A stretch of DNA of 9,287 nucleotides from Candidatus Tectimicrobiota bacterium (GTDB lineage Bacteria > JACPSX01): positions 2,697 through 11,983 of the forward strand of contig JACPSX010000187.1 in the NCBI GenBank assembly GCA_016193065.1. The letters are read 5' to 3'. Under the pieces are notes generated by a model. That model had not been told where the DNA came from. It saw nothing but the letters and a program-made list of their open reading frames with translations, and made no database searches. Below, piece after piece: positions 3,690-6,090 of this stretch (positions are counted from its first letter, which is position 1; each line of letters begins with the position of its first letter). The position numbers and the translations under genes are program-made.

Positions 3690-4139
3690 ATGAGCGCACA
3701 GCGGGAGATTCGGATTGGCCTGGACAATTACATGCTGCCGGATTTTTCTCAAAACGGGCACAACCACATTTACCGGGACCGCAAGGGCCGGCCGATTTGC
3801 GTGGCCGCCTATGAAGAAGCCGGCCGCGGGAACTTCGGCGCTTTGAACCCGGACATCCGGGTCGGCCGGGCCATTTATGATAAACTCCACGTCCAGGTGA
3901 CTCTGTGGCGGAAGAACTGTGAGGACGTTCCCACCTACATCGTGAACGGAGATCCGGGTCTGGAGATCACCCAGGACATCAACTGGCTTCTCTCCGAGCA
4001 CCTTGAGGCCTTCGGAAATTGGGAAAAGGTCACCGTGGAGGCCTTCAAGGACTACATGTTCCGGAACTATCAGGTCACCTACAGCAGCAGGGGGGAGTGG
4101 ACCCACATCAGCGCTGAGGAGCGGATGGCCCAGCACTAG
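3690..4139 (+). CDS. Hypothetical protein, 149 aa, family not recognised
   Basis: I do not recognise this protein. It is soluble-looking, with no signal peptide or membrane segment, and rich in Tyr, Asn and Trp. Visible landmarks are a GHNHIYRD stretch (23-30) with H24 and H26, IC at 36-37, RKNCEDVP (74-81) with the second Cys at 77, and a C-terminal half with helix-like segments (ITQDINWLLSEHLEAF at 93-108; VEAFKDYMFRNY at 116-127). The two His and two Cys could bind metal or be incidental. The ATG at 3690 has an excellent AGGAGGGGG site. It is the first gene after the dyad-controlled promoter. The DUF2203 gene follows after 27 nt on the same strand, so the two are probably co-transcribed. 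Reading frame, ribosome-binding site and codon use support a real gene. Confidence 0.85.
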   Translation: MSAQREIRIGLDNYMLPDFSQNGHNHIYRDRKGRPICVAAYEEAGRGNFGALNPDIRVGRAIYDKLHVQVTLWRKNCEDVPTYIVNGDPGLEITQDINWLLSEHLEAFGNWEKVTVEAFKDYMFRNYQVTYSSRGEWTHISAEERMAQH

Positions 4140-4166: not shown

Positions 4167-4556
4167 ATGAGCAAAAAATTTTTTACCGTGGAGGAAGCGA
4201 ACGGGCTTCTTCCCAATCTGATCCCGATTCTTGAGGAGCTCAAGAACGTGGAGAAGTCCCTGAGGAAAACCCGGAAAGTTGCCACCGCTCTGGCTCAAAA
4301 GGCCGAGGGCAACGGCGGCGGCAAGGAAGGGAGCCAGCAGCTCCTCCGCCACTACTTCCCCATACAGAGCCTCCTCCAGAGAATCGAAAGCCTCGGCATC
4401 TTGGTGAAGAACATCGAGCGCGGGCTCATTGACTTCCCCTACTGGAAAGAGGGGCGCGAAGTGTGCCTGTGCTGGGAATTTGGGGAAACCCGCATCGGCT
4501 ATTGGCACGAAGTGGAGGCAGGTTATGAAGGACGGCAGTCTATTGAGACCCTCTAG
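4167..4556 (+). CDS. DUF2203 family protein
   Basis: The 129-aa product matches the DUF2203 family as I know it: FTVEEANGLLPNLIPILEEL (6-25) at the N-terminus, a helical and variable middle with a Gly/Lys-rich linker (48-56), then the diagnostic GILVKNIERGLIDFPYW (77-93), REVCLCWEFGE (97-107) and IGYWHEVEAGYEGRQSI (110-126). The family is found in many bacteria and has no assigned function. Helix composition suggests a coiled-coil or helical-hairpin first half. No good ribosome-binding site stands directly before the ATG (AAGGGA is about 13 nt away), so expression may depend on coupling to the preceding gene. Its TAG stop shares the tetranucleotide CTAG with the TAG stop of the convergent HtrA-like gene. 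Confidence 0.9.
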   Translation: MSKKFFTVEEANGLLPNLIPILEELKNVEKSLRKTRKVATALAQKAEGNGGGKEGSQQLLRHYFPIQSLLQRIESLGILVKNIERGLIDFPYWKEGREVCLCWEFGETRIGYWHEVEAGYEGRQSIETL

Positions 4557-5449
4557 CGGTAGAACTCCTCGCGATTGCCGCAGACGATCTCCACGTTCTT
4601 GAGTTCCTTATCCCGCAGGATGTTGAGAACCACCGTATCCCCGGGCTTCTTTTTCCAGAGCTCACCGTAAAGCTCCGCCCGGCTGGTAACGTCCCGGGAA
4701 TTGATCCCCAAAATCACATCCCCCTCGCGCAGCCCGTGGATCTGGGCGGGGCCGTAAGGAACCACGCTGGCCACCACCAGCCCTCCTTCCAGAGGGTGAG
4801 CGTAGAATCCAATCCATCCCTGGGCGGACCGGATGCGCTGCCCCAGGGTCAGGAATTCCTCCCGGTAGTCCAGAAAGTACTCGACCGGGATCACCATGGT
4901 CGAGCGCAGAAGCTCATTCAGGTTAAGGGAAACCACCCCAACCAGGTCCCCCCTCATCGTGAACAGACCCCCTCCGCCAAACCCGGGATTCAGGGCGGTG
5001 GTCATGATGGCCCGATCGAGCATGTACTCCCAGTGGGCATCAAAAGGCCCCAGGTAGGTAACGATGCCTCCGTTCCCCTTGCGGCCTTCACCGCCGGTCC
5101 CGGCCACCACGAATACCGGCTGTCCAATCTCCAGGGTACGGGAGGAAACCATCTCAACGAGAGGAGCAATGGTCAGAGGGATGCGCAGGAGCGCAATGCC
5201 GCTCTCAAAGTCCTGGGCCACTGTTTCCCCCGGAAAACTCCTGCCGTCGCTCAAGGTGACCGTTATCTTCTCGGCACCCAAGACCACGTAATTGACGGTC
5301 AAAATCAAACCCGAGGAATCAACGAGCGTACCCGAACCCAGGCGCTCGGTTCCCAGCGCCCAGACGGAAGGGTGACCCGCAGGAACCTGAACCTGCAGGG
5401 AGACAGTGGCCGGCGCGACCTTTTCAATCAGGGCAACATTCGCGTCCAT
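4553..5449 (-). CDS. HtrA/DegP-like protein lacking the catalytic triad, with PDZ domain
   Basis: The fold is that of the S1C trypsin-like proteases (about 1-200) followed by a PDZ domain (about 211-295; GLREGDVILGIN at 239-250). Landmarks align readily: GSGTLVDSSGLILT (38-51), TLSDGRSFPG (65-74), NPG...GGGL (154-162), GDLVGVVSLNLNE (167-179). All three catalytic positions are changed. The His of the NxHVV motif is Tyr54 (NYVV), the Asp of SDIAL is Gly84 (SGIAL), and the Ser of GNSGG is Gly158 (GFGGG). I checked these codons in the nucleotide sequence: TAC, GGC and GGC. There is no signal peptide; the protein starts at the protease domain, so it may be cytoplasmic, unlike periplasmic DegP. 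Length 298 aa suits one protease plus one PDZ domain. It is probably a pseudoprotease acting as a chaperone or peptide-binding scaffold; the frame is intact, arguing against simple decay. Confidence 0.88.
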   Translation of the reverse strand: MDANVALIEKVAPATVSLQVQVPAGHPSVWALGTERLGSGTLVDSSGLILTVNYVVLGAEKITVTLSDGRSFPGETVAQDFESGIALLRIPLTIAPLVEMVSSRTLEIGQPVFVVAGTGGEGRKGNGGIVTYLGPFDAHWEYMLDRAIMTTALNPGFGGGGLFTMRGDLVGVVSLNLNELLRSTMVIPVEYFLDYREEFLTLGQRIRSAQGWIGFYAHPLEGGLVVASVVPYGPAQIHGLREGDVILGINSRDVTSRAELYGELWKKKPGDTVVLNILRDKELKNVEIVCGNREEFYR

Positions 5450-5469
5450 AAGTCCTTCTCTCAGACCTC

Positions 5470-5498
5470 ACTGTACACAGTCTCAGGAAAGGAGACAA
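5470..5498 (-). promoter_or_regulatory. Candidate promoter of the HtrA-like gene, with small dyad
   Basis: On the minus strand TTGTCT (5498-5493) and TACAGT (5475-5470) are 17 bp apart, each 4/6 to consensus. The -10 lies in the imperfect dyad ACTGT-GT-ACAGT (5481-5470). The ATG at 5449 follows with GAAGGA about 4 nt upstream. The rest of the 179-nt gap between this gene and the racemase fragment (5450-5628) shows no further gene. The promoter is moderate in quality. Confidence 0.3.
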
Positions 5499-5628
5499 GC
5501 ACGAATCCGGCAGAGAAGACACGCCGCCAGGAGGGTTTTGCTCCGCACTCATCTGGCCGGCATGGTTGCAAATCCGACCAGCATGTTTGCGTTGATGATA
5601 TCAGGGATGGGAGAACCTTTCCGCCCGT

Positions 5629-6090
5629 CTACAAGTTTGTCCTCGCGGTTGAAAACATTCCAAGATCTGCCGTCCCCAGCGTTACGGGCCGGGGATAACT
5701 GACCCGGCTGTGCCGGATCCGGAGCCGCACGCACATTTCGGCGATTCCCACGGCAATTCCAATGGGGTCCAGAACAGAAACTCCCATGTCGCGGGCCGCC
5801 TCGACTCCGGGATCGGAATTACAATGCACAATGGCCGCATCGAATCCCCGCTCTTCCCCCTCCTTGAGCTTCCTCACGATGAAGGGCTCCAGGAAAGTGA
5901 AATCCAGGCCCGTGGGACCGCCGCCGGCGCGGGAACGCGCGTAAAGCTGACCCACTTCCCCGTTTTCCGGACAGACCAGTTCGATGACTGTCCCCGAAGA
6001 CGCCAGGGATTGCAGATAGGATTGTTCCCGTTCGATATGGGAGGGCTCATAACACGCTGCGCTGGAAAGCTTGACTACCCAGAGTCGCAT
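5629..6090 (-). CDS. Asp/Glu (hydantoin) racemase family protein, C-terminally truncated
   Basis: The N-terminal domain resembles the Asp/Glu/hydantoin racemase superfamily: an opening strand (MRLWVVKL) and, near 82-100, GFDAAIVHCNSDPGVEAAR, the segment holding the first catalytic cysteine (C90), then a VSVLDPIGIAVGIAEM helix region (104-119). Family members are usually about 210-250 aa with a second catalytic Cys in a C-terminal domain. This ORF ends at 153, and its last 30 residues (from about SRVSYPRP) do not look like the family. The next 179 nt contain no recognisable C-terminal half in any minus frame. It is therefore probably a degraded or truncated gene. The ATG lies 6 nt after the SBP stop with no clear ribosome-binding site, implying co-transcription. 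Racemases of this type accompany hydantoinases, consistent with hyuA nearby. Confidence 0.6.
   Translation of the reverse strand: MRLWVVKLSSAACYEPSHIEREQSYLQSLASSGTVIELVCPENGEVGQLYARSRAGGGPTGLDFTFLEPFIVRKLKEGEERGFDAAIVHCNSDPGVEAARDMGVSVLDPIGIAVGIAEMCVRLRIRHSRVSYPRPVTLGTADLGMFSTARTNL

Follow-up and report, generated by a model that had tools for sequence, protein, structure and literature searches.

We identified an HtrA-like protein in which all three residues of the catalytic triad have been replaced, encoded on the minus strand at positions 4553 to 5449 of the window (the whole stretch of 9,287 nucleotides analyzed, from a Candidatus Tectimicrobiota genome). It is most likely a dedicated binding protein that does not cut, rather than the product of a broken gene. 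Our preferred reading, to which we assign a probability of roughly 0.6, is that of a cytoplasmic HtrA pseudoprotease whose PDZ domain and dead protease domain would bind peptides or C termini as an adaptor or holdase. The protein belongs to a bacterial family that has the HtrA shape, shares the loss of the triad, and is apparently undescribed.

An Intact Gene Encodes a Predicted HtrA Fold Lacking the Catalytic Triad

The minus-strand frame runs from an ATG at 5449 to 5447 through 298 codons to position 4553 with no internal stop, confirming the open frame reported in the first-pass annotation, which had not given the strand. A possible ribosome-binding site, AGAAGG, is read from the sequence 4 nt upstream of the ATG (5454 to 5459, minus strand). 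GC content by codon position in the pseudoprotease gene (0.64/0.42/0.75) resembles that of its neighbors and has the pattern of a genuine gene. An antisense ORF on the plus strand (4736 to 5698) has no support as coding sequence, as both the family match and the gene-like codon-position GC belong to the minus frame. The stop-to-stop frame comprises 304 codons, and with only six residues preceding the ATG a signal peptide could not fit, in line with the earlier statement that none is present.

Pfam placed a protease-fold domain (Trypsin_2, 5e-18) at residues 38 to 172 (4934 to 5338, minus strand) and a PDZ domain (PDZ_2, 7e-18) at residues 212 to 288 (4586 to 4816, minus strand). An AlphaFold model built with a 70-row alignment had a mean pLDDT of 94.5 and a pTM of 0.91. 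The structure search agreed on the fold, with HtrA proteases occupying the top ranks of Foldseek and VIA-align 2 throughout; DegQ (3pv2) was the best PDB match of the model (VIA Z 27.9), and the protease domain of HtrA1 (3tjo) matched it at 2.1 Å over 180 residues. For most entries, the rmsd over the two domains was 4 to 9 Å, compared with about 2 Å for the protease domain alone, and the PDZ is therefore placed differently in the model. The window protein is thus predicted to fold as an HtrA protease plus one PDZ, and the claim that fold and PDZ are kept was borne out by both the domain matches and the model.

Tyr54 (codon 5288 to 5290), Gly84 (5198 to 5200), and Gly158 (4976 to 4978), all on the minus strand, fall on the catalytic His, Asp, and Ser, respectively, in phmmer alignments to solved DegP and DegQ chains, again in a MAFFT alignment with the host genome's own two HtrA proteases, and likewise in a profile (HMM) alignment. 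This agreement among three alignments upholds the replacements that had been read from motifs alone. In a separate alignment, the same columns held His, Asp, and Ser in 35/35 canonical HtrA rows. Among the membership features of active HtrA/DegP proteases (S1C), a trypsin fold followed by a PDZ is therefore present, while the His-Asp-Ser triad and the export signal are absent. In the model, strands 122 to 138 and 142 to 150 are joined by a short turn carrying Trp140-Glu141-Tyr142 (5024 to 5032, minus strand), the hallmark of the family. From knowledge of HtrA proteases and the alignment to those of the host genome, we take this turn to sit where canonical HtrA has the flexible sensor loop L3.

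The Replacements Define a Single Clade with Two Subfamilies

The family set comprised 70 nonredundant members, namely 41 in group A, 27 in group B, and two with His-Gly-Ser. Gly occupies position 84 in all 70 members and position 158 in 66, and Tyr occupies position 54 in 66. Trp140 and Glu141 are invariant (70/70), as is Asp80, and Tyr142 is found in 69/70. At the carboxylate-binding loop of the PDZ, Trp212-x-Gly214 is likewise invariant (70/70). The window protein, with Trp-Glu-Tyr at 140 to 142 and Gly at the Asp position, carries the features by which the family is defined. Since the same substitutions recur family-wide, they are more than chance.

Group A, including the window gene, consists of proteins of about 300 amino acids with a conserved N-terminal Met-Asp-Ala start and no signal peptide, and no hydrophobic stretch was found upstream of the group A start. 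Residue 156, the oxyanion-hole position 193 in chymotrypsin numbering, is Gly in 41/41 group A members and is followed at 157 by an aromatic residue or leucine in 40/41. In group B, 26 of 27 members have a residue other than Gly at 156, and position 157 is Trp or Phe without exception. Most of group B has a hydrophobic, signal-peptide-like N terminus, as judged by eye, with the exception of L009 and L043, which group with B. Group B (L045, L046, L048, and others), the second of the two pseudoprotease subfamilies, is apparently exported. Single departures at position 54 were His in L063 (3455 to 4351; genome G113) and Ser in L057 (15088 to 15981, minus strand; genome G115). In each of these two genomes, group A is represented by two copies separated by about 12 kb.

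In a tree with 35 canonical HtrA rows, the family formed one clade (support 100/100), which was still supported after the triad columns and their neighbors had been deleted. The two His-Gly-Ser relatives, L085 (1501 to 2391, minus strand) and L056 (3505 to 4392, minus strand), keep His and Ser, have Gly for Asp together with the Trp-Glu-Tyr motif, and are possible transitional forms. In the full-column tree, they were sister to the rest (99/91), and changes counted on that tree numbered one for Asp, two for Ser, and three for His. The retained His and Ser of L085 and L056, their signal-like N termini, and their basal place in the full tree suggest descent from exported HtrA proteases with Asp lost once. 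Once the triad columns were removed, the basal split of these relatives was unsettled (AU p 0.07, log-likelihood difference 0.65), and with that support gone, we do not claim an Asp-first order of triad loss.

Members of the family span at least five phylum-level groups. One homolog of the window protein, at 50% identity, came from a groundwater MAG labeled Deltaproteobacteria, and further homologs at 47, 41, and 32% identity were found in three other phylum-level groups. In the phylum-level group of genome G084, 74 of 95 genomes had a match at E < 1e-60, a count by E-value at a threshold well beyond the score level of canonical HtrA proteases; the gene was mostly missing from one family of this group (f104). 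Two other phylum-level groups had the family in 3/4 and 2/5 genomes. The window genome and G047, each the sole genome compared from its phylum-level group, both carry it. In a domain-wide sample of 386 genomes, only six have the family, and its distribution is therefore narrow.

The Family Is under Purifying Selection

A search for homologs with the Tyr-Gly-Gly pattern, including any close homologs with an intact triad, recovered a conserved clade from which the triad is missing throughout. NG86 omega was 0.03 to 0.29 in pairs at 88 to 99% amino acid identity, barring one pair with a dS of only 0.017. Over the 653 pairs with at least 60% identity, the median was 0.31, and since NG86 tends to underestimate dS at such divergence and GC content, any error there would make omega too high. 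Purifying selection on the family is well supported. The first-pass annotation had proposed a selected, nonproteolytic, and cytoplasmic protein, a reading consistent with both the clade-wide triad loss and omega well below 1.

A decaying gene copy without function would explain why catalysis has been totally lost, and close-range selection on the window gene is not measurable because its genome is alone in its phylum-level group; for the window's own lineage, the sole one compared from that group, we infer selection from the family. However, frame, length, motif, and substitutions are conserved across phylum-level groups at 32 to 53% identity, and omega is well below 1 in close pairs. This conservation, together with omega, rules out a decaying pseudogene for the family and leaves decay of the window gene with hardly any probability.

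A Binding Role in the Cytoplasm Is Proposed

Nonproteolysis of the window protein, as judged from its residues, is well supported. Catalysis could in principle persist via other residues, as group A conserves His26 (39/41) and Ser28 (40/41), an alternative site judged by conservation and not by geometry. Nevertheless, His26 falls outside the near-invariant columns of the family as a whole, all three triad positions are replaced, and the non-Gly residue at oxyanion-hole position 156 in 26/27 group B members is linked in MamO to a blocked active conformation, where a residue other than Gly at position 193 and a bulky Trp of that loop have been described as incompatible with catalysis (PMC4794232). 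We consider persistent catalysis very unlikely.

Without a signal peptide, the window protein would be expected in the cytoplasm, apart from exported HtrA; a mixed complex with HtrA is therefore unlikely in group A, though possible in group B. Binding of C termini or hydrophobic peptides is most likely the surviving activity, given that the carboxylate-binding loop of the PDZ is intact. We propose that this PDZ would bind cytoplasmic proteins by their C termini or by hydrophobic peptides that they expose, and that the dead protease domain, with its aromatic residue beside the former nucleophile and the tight Trp-Glu-Tyr hairpin in place of the flexible L3, would provide a rigid module for binding or adaptor work without cutting. 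The protein could then act as an ATP-independent adaptor or holdase, passing on or shielding the proteins it binds; we infer this ligand and cellular role, with the adaptor or holdase function drawn from the fold alone. A bolder version, which we regard as tentative and rather doubtful, is that a cytoplasmic branch of the HtrA superfamily serves as a dedicated and near-universal nonproteolytic adaptor or chaperone throughout most families of one bacterial phylum, a new Trp-Glu-Tyr hairpin linking ligand binding by the PDZ to a former active site that is closed and holds peptide.

Ordinary HtrA protease matches were found in 16/16 genomes examined, including that of the window, and the family is therefore no replacement for them. 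The Phe of the NPFG segment in the host genome's HtrA proteases, which presumably belongs to the HtrA trimer contact, is Gly in the window protein and mostly Gly in group A; coassembly with HtrA is therefore doubtful, and the window protein may be monomeric.

The presence of ordinary HtrA proteases in every genome examined also speaks for a regulatory subunit, that is, a pseudoprotease that joins or binds an active HtrA or other protease and modulates it. There is a precedent in MamO and MamE-dependent proteolysis (PMC4794232), and one phylum-level group has an exported HtrA gene convergent to the family gene at a distance of about 1.2 kb (L078, 5734 to 6873 and 8101 to 9093). Against this, group A proteins, the window protein among them, have no signal peptide whereas HtrA is typically exported, so the two would not meet, and the NPFG substitution argues against coassembly. 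The regulatory role suits group B better, and a protease partner is the weaker option for the window gene, for which we judge it unlikely. The exported HtrA neighbor in L078 carries the His, Asp, and Ser motifs.

The precedent of MamO, whose protease domain was repurposed, could equally favor small-ligand or metal binding, and the invariant Trp140, Glu141, and Asp80 with the near-invariant Tyr142 could make a new pocket. However, the whole-family alignment contained neither a conserved di-histidine pair nor any near-invariant His, and we view this repurposing as quite improbable. Peptide or C-terminus binding in the cytoplasm is thus the reading we retain.

Relation to Known HtrA Proteases and Pseudoproteases

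The window protein resembles DegP, DegQ, and DegS (HtrA, MEROPS S1C) in its protease-fold and PDZ architecture, in sequence, and in fold (Z 27.9 to DegQ), and its closest NCBIfam model is degP_htrA_DO (Do-family endopeptidase, 4e-35). Unlike these proteases, it has no His-Asp-Ser triad, no signal peptide, a single short PDZ, and the Trp-Glu-Tyr hairpin for the flexible L3, and its score of 121.5 bits falls far short of the curated NCBIfam cutoff of 416.2 bits.

MamO and the inactive MamE paralogs likewise descend from HtrA proteases, are maintained by selection as pseudoproteases, and carry a bulky residue in loop L1 (PMC4794232). MamO, from magnetotactic Alphaproteobacteria, binds metal via a di-His motif, activates MamE via its TauE domain, and has Thr replacing Ser (PMC4794232). 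In contrast, the Trp-Glu-Tyr family has all three triad positions replaced and retains the PDZ, and its subfamily A lacks a signal peptide. By sequence comparison, the di-histidine metal site of MamO is absent from the family. A C-terminal TauE domain is also absent, as the 298-residue protein ends after the PDZ and Pfam finds only protease and PDZ domains. The NCBIfam MamO model matched the window protein weakly (E 0.0025), and the family was not found beside magnetosome genes in the loci compared. Inactive plant Deg proteins, namely AtDeg16 and the second protease domain of AtDeg7, are also HtrA domains without triad residues; AtDeg16 lacks Asp only, the inactive domain of AtDeg7 makes up one half of a protein that has two such domains, and both are eukaryotic (PMC3473262).

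Thus, the earlier remark that triad-less S1C proteins are not well described is accurate for this family, on which open papers yielded nothing beyond MamO and the plant proteins and which only generic models match in annotation and family libraries, but too broad for HtrA pseudoproteases as a kind, which are already known (PMC4794232, PMC3473262). The family differs from those examples in the clade-wide loss of all three residues, the Trp-Glu-Tyr hallmark, a subfamily without a signal peptide, and its spread through one phylum-level group. Annotation pipelines would label such genes proteases, which they very probably cannot be. HtrA proteases combine protease and chaperone roles, of which the chaperone part is hard to separate, and a conserved HtrA family that is naturally protease-free and apparently cytoplasmic provides a natural test of the fold in the absence of cutting.

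Gene Neighborhood

Gene position gave no clue to function, as the neighbors differ between phylum-level groups and no operon was conserved among them. Three neighboring genes, named by eye as a short-chain dehydrogenase, a dienelactone-hydrolase-like gene, and a BrkB-like membrane gene, are common within one large family and occur neither in the window nor in other phylum-level groups; we rejected them as operon partners and regard them as local synteny. In the window, positions 3690 to 4139 (plus strand) hold a 149-residue frame that has gene-like codon-position GC but matches no family significantly (best Pfam E 0.089). A DUF2203 gene (4167 to 4556, plus strand) is convergent with the pseudoprotease gene, and the ends of the two overlap by 4 bases.
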